Assembly: GCA_030148505.1 (NCBI GenBank)
Contig: JASBTI010000001.1
Location: 23,320 to 87,319, forward strand
Source of the DNA: Rhodanobacter sp.
Lineage (GTDB): Bacteria > Pseudomonadota > Gammaproteobacteria > Xanthomonadales > Rhodanobacteraceae
Direction: 5' to 3'
DNA: 64,000 nucleotides
Under the pieces are notes generated by a model that saw nothing but the letters and a program-made list of their open reading frames with translations, made no database searches and had not been told where the DNA came from. The translations under genes and the position numbers were made by a program. How positions within the stretch are numbered: the first letter of the stretch is position 1; every line of letters begins with the position of its first letter. Below, in pieces: positions 12,525-20,545 of this stretch.

Positions 12525-14204
12525 CTACTGCTTCATCATCGCCTGGCGAGGTGCTTTGAACGGGCTATCGGCATACCAGTGCGGCCAGACGCCGTCCTGA
12601 CTCAAATGCTGGCCCAACTCATACAACGCCTGGGTGTCTTCCAGAATACCGGCGTAGTCCCAGTGCGGATTGAACACGTCGTTGGGCGTGTGGTAGCGGT
12701 GTGCGGTGTAGTCATTCGCGGCTTTCTCGCCCGCGGCGCGGCCACCCTTGAGCAGGTCCAGACCCGAGCTGGCCAGCATCGCCGGCACCCCGACCTTGGC
12801 GAAGTTGAAATGGTCGGAACGGAAATAGAAGCCATTTTCCGGCGTGGCTTCGGGCGAGATCACCCGCCCCTGCAACTTCAATACCTGGGCCAGCATGTCT
12901 TCCAGTTGCGACTGTCCCTTGCCGATCACCGTCATGTCGTGGGCGCGACCGATGATCGGCAACGCATCGACGGCAATGTCGGCCACGGTCTTGTCCAGCG
13001 CAAACACCGGCTTGGCGACGTAATACTGCGAACCAAGCAGGCCGGACTCCTCCAGCGTCGGCATGAAGAACAACACGCTGCGCTGCGGTGGCTTTTTCTG
13101 ATGGGCAAACGCATCGGCGATTTCCAGCAACATGCTCAGGCCGGTGCCGTTGTCGATCGCGCCGCTGTAGACCTTGTGCCCTTTCAGCGAGGAGTCGGTA
13201 CCCAGATGGTCCCAGTGCGCGGTGTAGATCACCGCCTGATCCGGCTTGCTGCTGCCCTTGACCATCGCCAGCACGTTTTTCGACTGAATGTGGCCGATTT
13301 TGTTGTGCAAGGTCAACGACGCGGTGGCATCGAGGGCTACCGGCTTGAACCCGGGTTTCGCCGCAGCCTTCGCCAAGGTGTCGAAATTCATCCCCGCCGC
13401 GGCAAACAAGCGCTGCGCCGCCGCATGAGTCAGCCACCCGGCTACCGGCAGGCGCGGCGCCGGATCGATACGCGACGGCAGGCTCAGCTGCGGGCCGCTG
13501 CCGCTGTTCTGCAACACGCTGAACGGATAACCGGCCGCCGCGTCGCTGGTATGCACGATGAAACACGCCGCGGCGCCTTTCAGCGCCGCCTCGGCATATT
13601 TGTAGGTCCAGCGGCCGTAGTAGGTCATGGTGCGGCCATTGAACAGCTTCGGGTCGGAGGTAGCGAAACCCGGGTCGTTGACCAGCACGATCACCGTCTT
13701 GTCCTTCACATCGACGCCTTTGTAATCGTTCCAGTGCCAGGCGGGGGCATCCACACCGTAGCCCAGGAACACCACCGGCGAATGCGTCAGCTCGACCGTA
13801 GCTTTCGCCTGCAGGGTCTGCGCCATCATGTCGGTGCGGTAAGCGAACTTCACCTGCTTGCCGTGCGAGGCAATCTTCAACGCCACATCGGTGTTCAGCA
13901 GCAAGGTGGAGTCGGCCGGCACGATCTGGTACCAGGAGCCATGATTGCCGGGCTGCAGCCCCATCCGCTTGAACTCTTTCACCAGCCAGTCCGTGGTGCG
14001 CTGCGCGCCTATCGTGCCGGGCTTGCGACCGCCAAACGCATCAGAGCTGAGGGTTTTGTCAAACCTTGCGAAATCCTTGGCGTTGATCTGCGGCGCCAGG
14101 GCGCCCCCGGACGCCGACTTGGATGCGACAACGGCAGCCGTCGCATGGAGCGGACTGACAGCAACCCCCAGCGCAACGAAAAGAAGGGATGTCATGGCAC
14201 GCAT
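12525..14204 (-). CDS. Exported M28-family zinc aminopeptidase with PA domain
   Basis: The start at 14204 is chosen because it gives a clean signal peptide (MRAMTSLLFVALGVAVSPLHATA) with GGAAG-like GGAAG/GGAAGCC spacing upstream; the longer frame to 14288 adds a hydrophilic leader. The mature protein (559 residues total) has a protease-associated insert, then the M28 core with zinc ligands in AHWDHLG, AIDNGTG, EESGLLGS and the distal His near HRYHTPND. Such enzymes remove N-terminal residues from peptides in the periplasm or medium. It lies 245 bases downstream of the diguanylate cyclase gene on the same strand, so it could be at the end of the borosin transcript, but this is unproven. Confidence 0.88.
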   Translation of the reverse strand: MRAMTSLLFVALGVAVSPLHATAAVVASKSASGGALAPQINAKDFARFDKTLSSDAFGGRKPGTIGAQRTTDWLVKEFKRMGLQPGNHGSWYQIVPADSTLLLNTDVALKIASHGKQVKFAYRTDMMAQTLQAKATVELTHSPVVFLGYGVDAPAWHWNDYKGVDVKDKTVIVLVNDPGFATSDPKLFNGRTMTYYGRWTYKYAEAALKGAAACFIVHTSDAAAGYPFSVLQNSGSGPQLSLPSRIDPAPRLPVAGWLTHAAAQRLFAAAGMNFDTLAKAAAKPGFKPVALDATASLTLHNKIGHIQSKNVLAMVKGSSKPDQAVIYTAHWDHLGTDSSLKGHKVYSGAIDNGTGLSMLLEIADAFAHQKKPPQRSVLFFMPTLEESGLLGSQYYVAKPVFALDKTVADIAVDALPIIGRAHDMTVIGKGQSQLEDMLAQVLKLQGRVISPEATPENGFYFRSDHFNFAKVGVPAMLASSGLDLLKGGRAAGEKAANDYTAHRYHTPNDVFNPHWDYAGILEDTQALYELGQHLSQDGVWPHWYADSPFKAPRQAMMKQ

Positions 14205-14448
14205 CGAACCGGCTTCCACGTTATAAACAAGCACTCTTTTTACCGTCACCGGGCACGGCTGTCCATGAAAAACTAACGTAGCAAGCATCTTCGAACAGGA
14301 GCCAACGGGAATCTTGTCCTGCTACAGGTTGTCAAGAAACCCCGCACGCCTGGCGATTCGCCGTCACTTACCTCGATCACGCCCTGGACGTCGTATCCAA
14401 ACGGGCCTTGTGTATTGGGATGACAAAGTCCCGATCGACAGCGGAAAC

Positions 14449-16251
14449 CTACATTTCCGTACGTGACTTTCTTGGCTGTGCGGATGACACACCGCCCGCG
14501 CAATCGAACACCACCACACGATTGCGCCCGGCTTTTTTGGCCTGGTATAGCGCGTCATCCGCATGAATAAGCAACTGGCGCAGCTCATAGCCTGAGCATG
14601 CCGTGGTGGCCACGCCAAAACTCGCGGTGACTGAAACACCGCCATCGTCCTCGCCGGGCGGTTCGGCTATCGCCAGGCGAAGTTGTTCGGCGCGCTCGCC
14701 AACCCGGTGCAGGCTGCATTCCGGCAATAAAATACCGAATTCCTCACCACCCAGCCGGCCGAAGATATCGGTCGAGCGCAAATGTGTCTGACATGCCACA
14801 ACGGCCCGTTTCAATACTTCGTCGCCGGTCGCATGCCCATGGGTGTCGTTGACCTTCTTGAAATAATCCAGGTCGATCAGGATCAGGCAGGCCTCCTGCG
14901 ATGACTTCTCGCTATACCGCAGCACTCGCTCCGCCTCATCGAGAAAATGTTGGCGATTGAACAAACCCGTCAAGCTATCGCGGCGCGCCATGCGCATGAA
15001 GCTCAGCTGGGAACGCTTGAACCGGTAGGCCACATAGGCGATGAACGCCAGGATCACAAGCAAGAGGATGATATACAGCCGACCAGTTTCTACGGCTTTC
15101 TTGCCTAGCGCCTGCTGCAACTGCAGGATACGGTTTTGCTTGTTCAACGTCTCGATCTGCAGCTGGTTGGCGAGCACCTGTTGCTTCACCGTCTGGAACG
15201 CCAGCGCCTTCGCGCTGACGTCATTCAGATAACCCTTGTCGGCGGCCATGTATTTTTCGTGGTAGGCGAGAGCAGATGCGAAATGGCCCTGTTTTTTCGC
15301 CGCCATATACAGCACCTGATAAGCCACCATCGTGGCTTCGGAATAGGGCCGCTTGATACTGCTTTCGAGGATACGCCGCGCATAATCTTCAGCGAGTTTG
15401 CCCTCATCGGAACGCCAGTATGCGAGTGCCAATGTCGAGTTGAAGTCAGCCTCCAGCGGCGGATAGTGTTTCCGCTCAGCCATCGCGTAGTATTTTTGCA
15501 ATAGCCTAATAGCTTTGGCTGGTTGGCCGCGTTGAAGATAAACGTTAGCCACAAATGACTTGAAGATATCAGCCATCAGAACGTTTCCAGCCTTCCCACA
15601 GGCAGCGATACCAAGAGCCAGCTGTCTGTCGTCACCTTCAAGCTTTCCACTCCGAAACAGCGCTTGGAGTTTGTAGTTCCATCCGATGCAGTCACGCAGA
15701 TGAGTATCACTTTCGCGAAGCAATTGATCTGCATAGTTCACGGCCAGATCGTATTGACCGGCTTCAAGGTAAAGTTGCGACGCCACACCTAGCGCTTGAA
15801 TTCGCACATTTTTGTCGGTGATTTGGGGCAGTTTGTCCAGCAACGGCCCCATTCGTGTGAATGCTTCCTCGTAACGGGATTCAGTCACCAAGAGGTCGAT
15901 CAAGGTGGCATTGGCCCGAAACGCCAGGCGCGGATCCACCGATTGATTGCTGATCGCCTCCAGCTGAGGAATGGCGGTCTTGAAGTCCCCCCGGAAAGCG
16001 ACCTTCCGCGCCATCAGGTAACGAAGATGCCATTCTTGTTGCAGCGACATTCTTGACCTGGTTGCATCGAGACGCCGCATCAGTGCTTCAAATTCCACGT
16101 GCCGGGTGGGACTGACGCGGTCCGCCTGCCTGAGCAGTTGCGCGGGGTCGTCCGTTATATGAGCATCCGTGGCAGCGGGACAGGTCTGCGACAGCACCAG
16201 CAAGGTCAACCCTGCAAAAAGAACCCAGCGCCTTCGTCGCGAGCCCAACAT
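14449..16251 (-). CDS. Membrane diguanylate cyclase with periplasmic TPR-like sensor (GGDEF)
   Basis: The product has 600 residues. A signal peptide (1-27) leads into about 350 residues of TPR-like helices (for example AGQYDLAVNYADQLL, RGQPAKAIRLLQKYY), a coiled coil, one membrane helix (about 393-411, LYIILLLVILAFIAYVAY) and a GGDEF domain with active site GGEEF and the product-inhibition motif RSTD five residues before it. It therefore should make cyclic-di-GMP and be feedback-regulated. Its ATG lies three bases after the stop of the 107-aa borosin-like precursor, without a good ribosome site of its own, so translation is probably coupled to the precursor. The periplasmic repeats could bind peptide. 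Confidence 0.9.
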   Translation of the reverse strand: MLGSRRRRWVLFAGLTLLVLSQTCPAATDAHITDDPAQLLRQADRVSPTRHVEFEALMRRLDATRSRMSLQQEWHLRYLMARKVAFRGDFKTAIPQLEAISNQSVDPRLAFRANATLIDLLVTESRYEEAFTRMGPLLDKLPQITDKNVRIQALGVASQLYLEAGQYDLAVNYADQLLRESDTHLRDCIGWNYKLQALFRSGKLEGDDRQLALGIAACGKAGNVLMADIFKSFVANVYLQRGQPAKAIRLLQKYYAMAERKHYPPLEADFNSTLALAYWRSDEGKLAEDYARRILESSIKRPYSEATMVAYQVLYMAAKKQGHFASALAYHEKYMAADKGYLNDVSAKALAFQTVKQQVLANQLQIETLNKQNRILQLQQALGKKAVETGRLYIILLLVILAFIAYVAYRFKRSQLSFMRMARRDSLTGLFNRQHFLDEAERVLRYSEKSSQEACLILIDLDYFKKVNDTHGHATGDEVLKRAVVACQTHLRSTDIFGRLGGEEFGILLPECSLHRVGERAEQLRLAIAEPPGEDDGGVSVTASFGVATTACSGYELRQLLIHADDALYQAKKAGRNRVVVFDCAGGVSSAQPRKSRTEM

Positions 16252-16254
16252 CAG

Positions 16255-16578
16255 CTAGGTCAGGGACGTCAGCGCATGCAATATTCGAGGGGAAACCGCC
16301 GTCTGCTGGCTTTGCGTGGAGGAATCCTCCTTAACACCGGCTTCCTCAGTCTCGTCCTCAGTCTCGTCCTCATCTTCCTTGCCCGGATTTATATAGCAGC
16401 AGAACGGATCCTGCCCCAATAAAGCGCCCAGTGCTTGCCGATCCTTGCCGAGGATAGCGCTGCTAAGCACCGGAGTGGCCTGCGCTGTTGCCAACGCAAC
16501 TGCCAGTTCATCCCGCGACGCATTCCGTAAAGTCGCATCACGGCCAACACGATCCAGAAAATCGATGACATCGAACAT
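16255..16578 (-). CDS. Putative split-borosin precursor peptide
   Basis: The product has 107 residues with an AGGGGG ribosome site. Residues 1-56 look like a compact helical leader (FLDRVGRDATLRNA, ELAVALATAQ, AILGKDRQALGALLG). As I remember it, SonA, the Shewanella oneidensis split-borosin substrate, aligns without gaps and shares Phe7, Gly12, Asp14, Ala15, Leu17, Asp46, Leu50, Leu53, Gly55 and Tyr62. The putative core is FCCYIN (59-64), at the place where SonA is N-methylated (63 and 65). A very acidic tail (67-85) and a Ser/Gln/Thr-rich end follow. The matching methyltransferase is 263 bases upstream on the same strand. Precursor identity rests on recalled similarity plus context. Chemistry is inferred. 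Confidence 0.78.
   Translation of the reverse strand: MFDVIDFLDRVGRDATLRNASRDELAVALATAQATPVLSSAILGKDRQALGALLGQDPFCCYINPGKEDEDETEDETEEAGVKEDSSTQSQQTAVSPRILHALTSLT
16344..16372. repeat. 12-base tandem repeat in the acidic tail of the precursor
   Basis: CCTCAGTCTCGT occurs twice in tandem (16344-16355, 16356-16367) with a partial third copy (CCTCA). On the minus strand it encodes alternating Glu/Asp/Thr, so slippage would change tail length in steps of four residues without frameshift. Confidence 0.8.
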
Positions 16579-16841
16579 TTTGCCCCCTGGCGACTGTTTG
16601 CCAATTCACCCAAAACACTCCTTTCCGGTATGGCCTTCTGGCCACGACCTCCTGAGCAATCACGCCCCAAAACGACGGAAGAGGCGTGTCGGCGATGTCG
16701 CGATATTCCACCGTGCTCTGCATTGCTCCGTCATCGATAATAAACGAACATCCACTCAAAGCGCGACATTTATCACTTGCAACCAGCGGCGAAAGGGCCG
16801 GAAATCATCGCTCAGATCGGTTCAGACGGGCCTTCCAGGGT
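16579..16841 (-). promoter_or_regulatory. Leader region between borosin methyltransferase and precursor
   Basis: This 263-base gap holds no convincing gene. The only promoter-like element I see is a TATTAT -10-like hexamer at 16737-16742 (minus strand) with no good -35 at 16-18 bases. A separate promoter for the precursor is therefore possible but weakly supported. Short open frames here overlap the precursor in other frames and look accidental. Confidence 0.3.
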
Positions 16842-17651
16842 TTAACCATCGATGACGTCTGCACTATCCAGGGCCGACAACCGCGCCCTCATCGTAGAAT
16901 CCACCTCAGGCAATCGCGCCGGAGGAATCACGATAGTGTCCTCCATACCGATATCCGCCTGGGGCAGCGCGCTCAACGCCAGGCGTTTGACCTGCGGCTG
17001 TCGGGTCGGCAGCGTCGCCGTGCGGTAGATGATGAGCTGATGATCCAGCGGATAATCCCGCGCCAGCACCTCGACCAGGATCTGGCGATAACCAGCGCCG
17101 GTGGCAAACCGTTTCAGCGACTGATCGCCGACCACGCCCACTTGCCACAGCACCAGATAGGCGCTCGGATCGATGCGCCGCTGGTAGAACAGCAGCTGGC
17201 TGGCCTCGAAATGCTGGCAGCCAAACTTTCCCGGGTCGATGCCGAGATCCGCGTACAGGCAATCCTCGGCGGAAATGCCAGGCTCCATGTGTGCCGCGTA
17301 GCCTTCACTGCGTGCCACTTCAATAGCCTTGTGCGGCACCCAGGCAAACACGCCAGGATGACCGTAGAAGGCGCCACACACCCGCTTGCCTGCACGGACT
17401 TCGGTCAGCATGGCCTCGACCATTTCCCGATAGGTCTGCATCCGCGATTTGCCCTCGCGGTAGTGCGGCTGCAGGCTACGCACGTCGGCGTGCATCTTGG
17501 CCAGCCACAACTCGACGATGCCGTCCGAAGCGGCGGCGAACACCACGTCCGACTGCTCGATGTGGCTTCGCGCCAGCGGCCCGAGATGTGAACCCAGGGT
17601 CATGCCGATACCTACGCAGACCAGGCTTCCGGTATGTGCACCGGAACTCAT
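16842..17651 (-). CDS. Borosin-type peptide backbone alpha-N-methyltransferase (split form)
   Basis: This is a 269-residue tetrapyrrole-methylase-fold enzyme expected to use S-adenosylmethionine to methylate backbone amides of a peptide. The SAM loop is SLVCVGIGMT. The diagnostic block of the fungal borosin enzyme OphMA is present: GKSRMQTYREM, GAFYGHPGVF, KAIEVARSEGY, PGISAEDCLYADLGIDP and LVLWQVGVVG. OphMA catalytic residues Tyr66, Arg72, Tyr76 and Tyr98 correspond with identical spacing to Tyr64, Arg70, Tyr74 and Tyr96. Unlike OphMA there is no C-terminal clasp or core peptide, as in split bacterial systems such as SonM/SonA. Corrin or porphyrin methylation is unlikely. The partner substrate is encoded downstream on the same strand. 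Confidence 0.92.
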   Translation of the reverse strand: MSSGAHTGSLVCVGIGMTLGSHLGPLARSHIEQSDVVFAAASDGIVELWLAKMHADVRSLQPHYREGKSRMQTYREMVEAMLTEVRAGKRVCGAFYGHPGVFAWVPHKAIEVARSEGYAAHMEPGISAEDCLYADLGIDPGKFGCQHFEASQLLFYQRRIDPSAYLVLWQVGVVGDQSLKRFATGAGYRQILVEVLARDYPLDHQLIIYRTATLPTRQPQVKRLALSALPQADIGMEDTIVIPPARLPEVDSTMRARLSALDSADVIDG

Positions 17652-17810
17652 GCTCTACCCGCCCTCGCCCCATATCTCACGGGGAAATTTCCATTCCGAA
17701 TCGCGCCAGTCGCACGAGCGAGCCACGCTGCCACTTGCTCAGCCGCTGACCGGGGCTGACTCATGACAGGCATGTTCCCCAGGCACGAACAACCACGGCC
17801 ACGCTGGCAA

Positions 17811-18656
17811 TCAACCGCCGGCACTGCGTGACGTCGCCGGCAGCTTCTGCCCCACCAACCGCGCCCGGATCGCGCGCAGCTTGGCCTTGATCTTCGCTTC
17901 GTTGGCCGGACCTACCCGCAGCAGCATTTTCTGACCCGCCGAAAGCGATTCCAGCGACGGATCGGCGTAGGTATAAAGCACCTTGGGCTGGAGCAAGGCC
18001 GGCGGCTGACTCGGATCGGGCGTCGCCAGCAGGTTGTCGATTACCGCGATCAGGCGATCGTTGAAGTAGCCCTTGGGATAGCCGAGTTGCTTATACGCCT
18101 GCTGGAACAACGGATAGTGGCTGACGTACCAGTCGGTCAACTGGGTAGTATCGGCGGCCTCCAGCGCATGTATATAGGGGGCATAGCGCGCCGCGTTCTT
18201 GGTGCTGATGACCGTCTTGCCATCCACCGAGGTGACCAGAAAGGCACCTTTCGGGCCATGCAGCGGCAAAACGCGACGCCCCACCATGCGCCGCGGGAGA
18301 GCATCGATCGTGGCTACGGCGCGGGGAATGATCTGGGTGGGCACCAGCAGGCTGCGCAGCGCGCTGTCGCCCGTCAACGCCATCAGTGCCGAGGTCACGT
18401 TCGCATCGCTTCCATCCAGTGACGGCAACGGGCTGCTTCCCGCAGATGCCGGAGCCGATTCGGCCCGGGTAATCGGGTGCTGTATGGCGGCAGCATGCGC
18501 TGCTTCGGTAGCCGATGCCGACGGGGCCGGAGACGGCACCGACGTCGACACATTCTCATGAGTGGCCTTGCGCGCTAGAAACACGCCGGCGACAACGACT
18601 GCCACCACCACGATCACTGCCACGATCCAGCTGCCCACCGACGATTGCCTGCTCAT
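17811..18656 (-). CDS. DUF3014 membrane-anchored protein
   Basis: The start at 18656 (MSRQSSVGSWIV) is chosen for its GAGGAGAAAGGGC ribosome site; a longer frame to 18713 lacks one. The 281-residue product has one membrane helix (about residues 9-28, IVAVIVVVAVVVAGVFL), a Pro/Ser/Ala linker, and a DUF3014 domain (about 85-265; ALRSLLVPTQIIPRAVATID, YPLFQQAYKQLGYP, YTYADPSLESL). It is probably anchored in the inner membrane facing the periplasm. The function is unknown. The SLC13 permease gene lies 116 bases upstream on the same strand, and the borosin methyltransferase begins 159 bases downstream. Confidence 0.85.
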   Translation of the reverse strand: MSRQSSVGSWIVAVIVVVAVVVAGVFLARKATHENVSTSVPSPAPSASATEAAHAAAIQHPITRAESAPASAGSSPLPSLDGSDANVTSALMALTGDSALRSLLVPTQIIPRAVATIDALPRRMVGRRVLPLHGPKGAFLVTSVDGKTVISTKNAARYAPYIHALEAADTTQLTDWYVSHYPLFQQAYKQLGYPKGYFNDRLIAVIDNLLATPDPSQPPALLQPKVLYTYADPSLESLSAGQKMLLRVGPANEAKIKAKLRAIRARLVGQKLPATSRSAGG

Positions 18657-18772
18657 GCCCTTTCTCCTCTGATCCTGTACGGCGTTCGACTTTCCGGTCA
18701 CCCATTCGTTCACTTCATCATGACATCGGTGATCTCGCTACTCGCGTCATCGCACCGTCTGCACGCCAGCCG

Positions 18773-20545
18773 TCAATGAACGGTCTGAAAGGGCCAGAAA
18801 TGCGGGATCAACCACATCGAAAGGGCGCAGAACAAGGCAATCAACGGGATGCCGACTTTCATGAAGTCAGTGAAACGATAGCCGCCAGCGTAGTAAACCA
18901 TCGTATTGGTGGGATATCCCACCGGGGTAGCGAAGGATGTCGCCGCCGCAAACGCCACGGCCACCACGAACGGGCGCGGGTCAACATGCATCGCATGGCC
19001 TACCGATGCGGCAATGCCGACCATCAAGACGACGGAGGGATTGTGCCCCATCAGCTCGGTCAGCAGCGCCGTCAGCAGATAGACCATCAACAGCGCCGCC
19101 AGCGGCCCGTGACTGCCAACCAGGGCCATGCCGGCATCGACGACGACAACCGACAAGCCGCTTTTTTCAATTGCCATACCCAAGGGCAAAATGGCACCGA
19201 GCAGGATGATGATCTTCCAGTCCATGCCTTCGTACACGTCCTTGCGGCCGAAGCAGCCGGCCAACGCCATCGCGGCGACACCACAGATCGCGGCAATCGG
19301 GATGGGCAGCCAGTGCAAGCCCGAAATCACCACGACCGCCGCCATGATTGCTACCGCGGCAATTGCCTTGCGGGGCGTCTTGGGGGCGTCCTCGCGCTCG
19401 CTGAGCACAATGAACGATTCGTCCCCGCGCAGATTGGCCATGGCATCCTCGTCCACCAGCACCATCAACACATCGCCGACTGCCAGCGCCACCTCGCTGA
19501 GCTTTTCGCGCAACAGCTGCCCCCGTCGGTGAATCGCCAGCGCCACCGCGTCGTAGCGCCAGCCCAGGCCGGTTTCGACGAAGCGTTTGCCCTCGACCGC
19601 ACTGGCCGGTGCCACCATGATTTCGACCAGTACCCGCGGACGGTCGGCGTGATGCGCGTAAGGCGTATCGGTGGCGTTGCGAAGGTGCGTCTGCCGGCGA
19701 AATTCCTCGATTTTTTCCCAGTCGCCGCGGATCAGCAATACATCGCCTGCAGCCATCTGCTGGGAGCGTGGTGACCACATGCGCCGCTCACCACGCAACA
19801 ACTCAAGCGGGTAGACGCCGAAGCGTTCCCCGAGGGTGGCATCGGCGATGCTTTTGCCCAGCAGTGACGACTGTTCGGTAATTTCCAGCTCGGCAACGTA
19901 CTTGCCGATATCCGCCTTGACCGGAGCCTCGGTATTGACCTCGCGGGGCAACAACCAACGGCCGACCAGCATCAGATAGACGATACCAACCACGGCCAGC
20001 ACAGCACCCATCTCGGTAAATTCAAACACGCCGAAACCCGACAGTCCCTCCTTGCGCGCCAGGGTATCGGCAAGCAGGTTGGATGAGGTGCCGATCAGCG
20101 TAGTGACGCCACCCATTTGCGCGGCAAACGCCATCGGCATCAACACGCGGGCTGGCGAGGTACCGGTACGCTGGCAGACCTTGAGCGCCAAGGGCAGAAA
20201 GGTGGCAACCAGTGCGATGTTCTTGATGAAGGCGCCGAGTGGCGCGATCACCACCATCAATGCCAACGTGAGCAACCATGGCCGACGTATGCGCATCAGC
20301 AACTGACTGAGCGGTTCCAGCGCGCCGGAGCGCTCGATGCCCATGCTCAGCGCAAACATCGCGGCCACGGTCACTGTGGCTTCGTTGCTGAAACCGCTGA
20401 GCGCCTCGACCGGGGTGACGATGCCAAGAATCACCAAAGCGGCCAACGCCATCAGTGCCACCAAATCGATGCGCACTTTCTCGCTGGCGAACAACCCCAT
20501 CGCCACCACGATCACCGCCACGACCGCCCATGCCTGCCAGCTCAT
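18773..20545 (-). CDS. SLC13-family permease with two RCK_C domains
   Basis: A 590-residue inner-membrane transporter of the divalent anion:sodium symporter type. Two membrane bundles (about 1-195 and 400-590) flank two cytosolic TrkA-C/RCK_C regulatory domains (about 205-290 and 295-375; LLIRGDWEKIEEF, DVLMVLVDEDAMANL). SLC13-type re-entrant motifs are seen as GTSSNLLAD and GYPTNTMVYY. Proteins of this architecture include YfbS-like transporters for sulfate or other dianions; the substrate cannot be assigned. The N-terminus MSWQAWAVVAVIVVAMGLF is a natural first helix, although the ribosome site is poor. Confidence 0.88.
   Translation of the reverse strand: MSWQAWAVVAVIVVAMGLFASEKVRIDLVALMALAALVILGIVTPVEALSGFSNEATVTVAAMFALSMGIERSGALEPLSQLLMRIRRPWLLTLALMVVIAPLGAFIKNIALVATFLPLALKVCQRTGTSPARVLMPMAFAAQMGGVTTLIGTSSNLLADTLARKEGLSGFGVFEFTEMGAVLAVVGIVYLMLVGRWLLPREVNTEAPVKADIGKYVAELEITEQSSLLGKSIADATLGERFGVYPLELLRGERRMWSPRSQQMAAGDVLLIRGDWEKIEEFRRQTHLRNATDTPYAHHADRPRVLVEIMVAPASAVEGKRFVETGLGWRYDAVALAIHRRGQLLREKLSEVALAVGDVLMVLVDEDAMANLRGDESFIVLSEREDAPKTPRKAIAAVAIMAAVVVISGLHWLPIPIAAICGVAAMALAGCFGRKDVYEGMDWKIIILLGAILPLGMAIEKSGLSVVVVDAGMALVGSHGPLAALLMVYLLTALLTELMGHNPSVVLMVGIAASVGHAMHVDPRPFVVAVAFAAATSFATPVGYPTNTMVYYAGGYRFTDFMKVGIPLIALFCALSMWLIPHFWPFQTVH

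Follow-up and report, generated by a model that had tools for sequence, protein, structure and literature searches.

Three genes lie side by side on the minus strand of the window, the whole stretch of 64,000 nucleotides of Rhodanobacter sp. analysed here (GenBank assembly GCA_030148505.1, contig JASBTI010000001.1, positions 23,320 to 87,319), and this neighbourhood recurs in related bacteria: a borosin-type α-N-methyltransferase (M), a separately encoded precursor (A) and a TPR sensor with a diguanylate cyclase domain (G). M and A almost certainly constitute a type IV split borosin, on the evidence of sequence, gene order, active-site residues and the homology and predicted fold of the leader, and A is probably linked in function to G. 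That the core peptide of A is the ligand of the TPR domain of G has about even chances, and the same balance holds for the reading that we favour, a three-gene module in which M methylates the backbone of A and G senses the peptide and gives a c-di-GMP signal. An earlier note on this DNA had described a split borosin locus of two genes; the enzyme/precursor pair stands, while the third gene, a TPR-GGDEF gene only 3 bp past A, had been overlooked. The near-constant TPR-cyclase partner suggests for an orphan peptide class a concrete signalling role that can be tested, also in laboratory Shewanella, the source of the best-studied pair.

The methyltransferase and its precursor

Both proteins named in the earlier note, an enzyme of 269 aa and a protein of 107 aa, are encoded at their places on the minus strand (Table 1) and are separated by 263 bases, and the OphMA-like sequence blocks quoted for the enzyme are found in M. 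A ribosome-binding-site-like AGGGGG is present just upstream of A. Type IV split borosins are defined by an α-N-methyltransferase and a precursor that are encoded separately (in passages of PMC8429565). At this locus there are separate ORFs, an enzyme of the SonM/OphMA family with the Tyr/Arg/Tyr/Tyr residues, and a precursor whose leader resembles a borosin-binding domain both by profile homology and by five predicted helices. Judged on these sequence features, the locus is an ordinary member of the known type IV split borosins for which backbone N-methylation is predicted.

Table 1. Features of the borosin locus and its surroundings in the window.
Feature	Positions	Strand	Basis
M28 peptidase gene, candidate accessory only	12525..14288	-	Pfam Peptidase_M28; downstream of G
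G (600 aa): diguanylate cyclase with TPR sensor	14449..16251	-	Pfam GGDEF E 5e-43, TPR_12 E 4e-9
GGDEF domain (G residues 423-578), holding GGEEF and an RxxD inhibition site	14518..14985	-	Pfam; motifs in sequence
G residues 390-408: membrane helix	15028..15084	-	hydropathy 2.43
G residues 31-380: proposed peptide receptor (TPR domain, then a long helix)	15112..16161	-	AlphaFold, VIA, invariant Cys pair
G residues 1-30: signal-peptide-like start	16162..16251	-	by eye: RRRR followed by hydrophobic residues
A: separate precursor, 107 aa	16255..16578	-	profile homology with SonA; 13 relatives (protein search)
Follower, A residues 67-107: first acidic, then a variable tail	16258..16380	-	low identity
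A residues 55-66, GQDPFCCYINPG: putative core	16381..16416	-	conservation; analogy with SonA
A residues 1-54: leader, borosin-binding-domain-like five-helix bundle	16417..16578	-	predicted fold
M: borosin-type α-N-methyltransferase, 269 aa	16842..17651	-	SonM E 3.1e-76 and active-site residues

The comparison with borosin methyltransferases that had been suggested for the enzyme gave SonM as its best solved relative in a PDB search (E 3.1e-76, residues 8-258), followed over the same stretch by dbOphM and OphMA entries (E 1e-49 to 1e-44), with a precorrin methylase at E 0.049 only. In Pfam, M matches only the superfamily model PF00590 (TP_methylase), and the best tetrapyrrole/cobalamin-type models of NCBIfam reached 31.8 bits against a cut-off of 525 and 17.2 bits against a cut-off of 246. 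Assignment of M to the tetrapyrrole methylases (corrin/porphyrin, CobA/CobJ type) was rejected, since M stays below the curated cut-offs of these NCBIfam models and solved borosin enzymes are far closer; a CobA/RsmI-type methylase, which would have spoken against a borosin, is not borne out by these scores. The numbering of the SonM active-site residues, their mutants and their role are described in passages of Miller et al. 2021 (PMC8429565). In an alignment made with a 263-aa Shewanella ortholog of SonM, M residues Tyr64, Arg70, Tyr74 and Tyr96, proposed earlier as catalytic, correspond to SonM Tyr58, Arg67, Tyr71 and Tyr93, and Phe102 and Trp169 to SonM Phe99 and Trp166; the first four are nearly invariant, being kept in 135, 136, 135 and 136 of 137 distinct M enzymes, respectively. 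Their counterparts in OphMA are presumably Tyr66, Arg72, Tyr76 and Tyr98.

Backbone N-methylation of encoded peptides had been called rare in bacteria, which the distribution of M does not support: of the genomes sampled, 35 of 36 in the window's genus (own genome included) carry it, as do 45 of 60 relatives, 67 of 77 Shewanella genomes and 9 of the 369 genomes of a class-wide sample. Type IV borosin clusters are likewise called widespread in bacteria in parts of a 2024 review (PMC11285071). The closest named loci to the window's module belong to Rhodanobacter and Dyella, and the window's own draft genome (3.68 Mb) holds a second M on another contig, 69% identical and with its own A and G. In this second module (L032, G000:C34:93000-107000) the core region of A is very different, being rich in Asn and Asp. 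Two further loci deserve mention. On a contig titled Candidatus Eremiobacteraeota (L084), M and A are like those of Rhodanobacter sp. ANJX3 (L083), so that the contig is probably misbinned, and in Alteromonadaceae bacterium XY-R5 (L114) two tandem M genes precede a GGDEF gene, with no precursor recognised by the profile.

The resemblance of A to SonA, proposed earlier on the basis of at least ten gapless positions, exceeds chance at the level of sequence profiles. A SonA-free profile of the window's precursor family scored SonA at E 2.7e-5 in the first pass, and hhalign aligned the A family to SonA from residue 1 over 64 gapless columns with 22% identity (about 14 positions), a probability of 94% and E 9e-8. 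A single-sequence PDB search with A gave two chance-level matches only and did not retrieve SonA, and Foldseek compared the A model to SonA with no significant E-value (3.1 or worse); the five helices of the leader model are predicted, and its fold matches are suggestive only. Among the 13 relatives the putative core is the best conserved section of A (mean identity 0.85), followed by residues 67-82 (0.43) and 83-107 (0.15) of the follower. By the position of SonA Leu63 and Ile65, Cys61 and Ile63 might be guessed to be the methylation sites of A. Pro65 has no amide N-H available for methylation, yet it lies inside residues 59-66, where methylation had been expected.

Precursors of other loci were found by ORF listing combined with the profile, a simple leader pattern having missed most of them. 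The profile is positive within 3 kb of M in 119 of 136 loci (44, 9, 24, 2 and 40 in the genus, order-level, named, class and Shewanella sets, respectively), and in some profile-negative loci a small ORF lies between M and G (68 aa in L108). In the first family, many cores have a single Cys or a pair of them ahead of an acidic stretch. In the precursors of L053, L054, L057, L058 and L065 the region after the leader is rich in Pro (PPGPPG, Pro runs) and not acidic, and those of the Shewanella loci L187 and L188 have only ISACA or IAACA after residue 54 and hardly any follower.

The TPR cyclase gene G and its recurrence beside M

The third gene combines a TPR domain with a GGDEF domain whose active-site motif has the form GG[DE]EF (GGEEF in the window), and c-di-GMP synthesis is predicted. 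The TPR domain is predicted to be periplasmic because G has a signal-peptide-like start, a membrane helix before the cyclase and an invariant Cys pair, both residues being kept across 39 sequences. A hydropathy scan picked out the two hydrophobic segments in 120 of 159 G-like ORFs, the signal-peptide-like stretch of the window's own G falling just below the threshold; among these 159 ORFs, GGEEF occurs in 149, GGDEF in 5 and the RxxD site in 130. The AlphaFold model of the TPR domain (pLDDT 91) has Rap, MalT, NprR and AimR among its best structural matches in VIA, where a degron receptor is level with Rap. Against this, TPR superhelices look alike, and in Foldseek the eukaryotic LGN ranks first and Rap only at rank 31, with generic TPR proteins matching too.

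In 127 of 136 distinct loci, M has a GGDEF ORF no more than 3 kb away and in the same orientation. These loci come from Shewanella, Paraglaciecola and Rheinheimera as well as from the window's genus and further families of its order. This count scored the GGDEF domain and not the TPR domain, in ORFs of at least 450 aa and beside M genes with at least 2.5 kb downstream; 8 of the 144 distinct M genes had less and were left out. By set, the neighbour was found in 44 of 44 loci of the genus plus genome G049, 12 of 12 at the order level, 31 of 32 named loci, 38 of the 40 Shewanella loci examined among the M matches listed, and 2 of 8 in the class sample. Three of the nine misses (L113, L189 and L206) have a GGDEF stretch in a shorter frame, and the other six are the loci with the most divergent M (L155 to L160, 31-45% identity), one of which has a TPR hybrid kinase. 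By chance, about 0.02 GGDEF genes would be expected within 3 kb on the same strand (30 placed at random in 3.7 Mb); the loci share ancestry, and the locus counts are therefore not independent events.

The TPR domain itself follows M closely. A TPR-GGDEF homologue was matched in all 40 of the relatives' regions first examined, and of the 30 GGDEF matches in the window's genome two carry this TPR domain, each adjoining an M. Among the 60 relatives, 43 have M and the TPR domain, 2 have M alone, none has the TPR domain alone and 15 have neither; both M-only genomes still have a GGDEF gene adjoining M (L162-L164). In the class-wide sample a profile of 39 TPR domains was positive in 3 of 369 genomes, with at most five candidates scored per genome, and in each case M adjoined the hit. 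Scans for promoters and terminators over the locus gave no more sites than shuffled sequence, and no RNA family was found in 14000-19000.

A stands directly upstream, on the same strand, of 62 of the 69 TPR cyclases of the genus; six others have neither A nor M in the stretch examined and one more has no A. Many loci combine two A-G cassettes with one M. Clear A-G pairs occur without any M in the stretch examined in L213 and L220, and with a truncated M in L221; further M-less cases come from contig ends (L222 and L229, the latter with a piece of M there) or a short stretch (L231). Gene order also changes: in Rheinheimera it is A-G-GNAT-M, and in L154 A is followed by a TPR hybrid kinase, M and a TPR-GGDEF gene. 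In L156, M and A precede a gene with TPR repeats, HisKA, HATPase, two receiver domains and Hpt. In L154 and L156, both distant loci, the constant partner of the borosin genes is the TPR sensor and not the cyclase.

Other neighbours are less constant. A homologue of the M28 peptidase is present in 16 of 41 loci, in many genus loci downstream of G, and a GNAT-type acetyltransferase gene stands beside M in 43 of 136 (e.g., L035, L037, L038, L047, L052, L055, L070, L103 and L111; Pfam Acetyltransf_3 in the three tested). These frequencies rule out both as obligatory parts. The window's M28 peptidase may be a maturation protease or a mere neighbour, and the GNAT enzyme might modify the peptide or its partner.

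Co-variation, a proposed mechanism and its rivals

Over 61 A-G pairs the distance between cores correlates with TPR distance at 0.77 and with M distance at 0.50, the core-TPR correlation remaining at 0.67 with M held. The GGDEF domain of the same gene was used as a linkage-matched control; all pairs, those of the first comparison included, had passed length and motif filters. Partial correlations of the core were 0.54 with TPR and 0.19 with GGDEF in the first set (60 pairs), and 0.45 and 0.29, respectively, in Shewanella (36 pairs). The leader tells against this reading: in the first set it shows the same pattern as the core (TPR 0.70, GGDEF 0.18), and in Shewanella it follows GGDEF (0.50) more than TPR (0.18). 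Faster evolution of the TPR domain could also account for part of the core-TPR co-variation, which is no more than supportive.

From gene order and domain content, which are observed in the loci, we infer a pathway of five steps. By analogy with SonM-SonA, M would bind the helical leader of A and methylate backbone nitrogens of the core past about residue 55. Some peptidase would then free the core, and the methylated core would reach the periplasm; backbone methylation favours membrane passage and, speculatively, might spare the cell an exporter. There the methylated core would bind the predicted periplasmic TPR domain of G, and binding would alter c-di-GMP synthesis or, in the relatives with TPR hybrid kinases, the output of a phosphorelay. 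A wider proposal, to be taken as tentative, is that split borosins serve Gammaproteobacteria as peptide pheromones, every precursor having its own periplasmic TPR receptor-cyclase or receptor-kinase, and that N-methylation yields a protease-proof, membrane-crossing and exporter-free c-di-GMP signal, a Gram-negative counterpart of Rap/NprR/AimR. If G does sense the peptide, ribosomal backbone N-methylation would be joined to c-di-GMP signalling, and several natural pairs of ligand and receptor, as many as two or more in one genome, would be at hand for studying how peptide specificity evolves.

The prediction of a periplasmic TPR domain sits against the finding that no exporter or peptidase gene recurs throughout the loci examined. 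This absence favours a reading that we regard as unlikely, in which methylated A, or the M-A complex, regulates from inside the cell by direct binding to G or some other partner, without release of a peptide; so does the leader, whose co-variation with G in the first set is no weaker than that of the core. The topology predicted for G, together with the lack of a signal-peptide-like start in A, argues against it, as does the conservation of the core above all other parts of A among its 13 closest relatives.

Regulators are frequent in RiPP clusters, and the peptide could instead be secreted as an ordinary metabolite that is antimicrobial or binds metal by means of its Cys pair and acidic tail, with G regulating its production, or biofilm formation around it, through c-di-GMP without sensing the peptide. 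The one or two Cys and the acidic stretch of many first-family cores are in keeping with this, and we judge it to be just as unlikely as the intracellular regulator. G is predicted to be a sensor-cyclase and not a transcription factor, A-G pairs duplicate as units, two of them without M, and the TPR domain persists where the output domain differs, all of which speaks against this reading.

More improbable still is an old operon maintained by common descent and by selection on joint expression, in which peptide and cyclase have no functional contact. Shared ancestry of the loci and co-variation, which linkage would also produce, are what it predicts; the neighbourhood nevertheless persists while the order varies (A-G-GNAT-M in Rheinheimera, A-kinase-M-G in L154), A-G pairs have been duplicated apart from M, and the TPR domain hardly occurs outside M-bearing genomes. 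Finally, that M is an ordinary corrin methylase and A an unrelated small protein is hardly credible, as the superfamily match to PF00590 that would suit it is outweighed by the PDB values for SonM and OphMA-type enzymes, the low NCBIfam scores and the homology of A to SonA.

Relation to known systems

The locus has its closest described relative in SonM-SonA of Shewanella oneidensis MR-1, a type IV split borosin (PMC8429565) that likewise has a separate enzyme and precursor, the same active-site residues and a homologous leader. MR-1 itself was not identified among the loci examined; close SonMA orthologs of other Shewanella (L193 and L209, SonA 87-90% identical) have the same third gene directly past A, its start following immediately on the stop codon of SonA. 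The two precursors differ in length (107 aa in A, 71 in SonA) and in the core, FCCYINPG with an acidic tail here and YLVISHGNGD in SonA. In the fungal OphMA the methyltransferase domain is homologous but the core is fused to the enzyme, whereas the window's core is encoded by a separate gene (PMC8429565, same passages).

Shewanella sp. HN-41 is the source of SahM, according to parts of PMC11285071, and has two M-A pairs, either of which may be that of SahM. In its locus L111, M is 59% identical to that of the window and is accompanied by an A with the core VCLMVPAEDE, of other letters than the window's, and then by a TPR-GGDEF gene; the longest A and G frames overlap by 8 bp there, in contrast to the 3-bp gap in the window. 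The other HN-41 locus, L193, holds the SonMA-like pair with the same third gene.

As to prior descriptions, no split borosin pathway had yet been tied to a final natural product in 2021 (passages of PMC8429565), and the accessible text of that paper, the only one found for SO1478/SO1479, makes no mention of SO1480. Xu et al. 2024 (PMC11395268) name a GGDEF-sequence-containing domain in the key to figure 1 on borosin types; some borosin-GGDEF link is thus already in print, although the legend alone, through which this domain is known here, does not distinguish a fused domain from a neighbouring gene. The literature searched, whose coverage of key borosin papers is incomplete, contained, among the papers listed, no proposal of a TPR receptor for a borosin, no borosin together with a diguanylate cyclase and no borosin in the papers on c-di-GMP, and a cyclase neighbour may have been described earlier in papers outside it.

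The likeness to the RRNPPA systems of Rap, NprR and AimR consists of the TPR superhelix (VIA) and of a receptor gene placed beside a small propeptide gene in both cases. RRNPPA peptides are not known to be modified. Because its predicted topology is not that of a cytoplasmic receptor, the TPR domain of G is not assigned to RRNPPA, of which it would be at most a functional parallel. RRNPPA receptors are cytoplasmic proteins of Firmicutes (passages of PMC9765709), whereas the TPR domain of the borosin loci has a predicted periplasmic location, occurs in Gammaproteobacteria and feeds a GGDEF domain or a histidine kinase. Some RRNPPA receptors occur without a propeptide (PMC9765709, same passages) and, likewise, some TPR cyclases occur here without A. 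Such is the case in L214-L219, whose TPR cyclases belong to the family (30-36% identity over the TPR part), have neither A nor M in the stretch examined and may be listeners without a peptide of their own.
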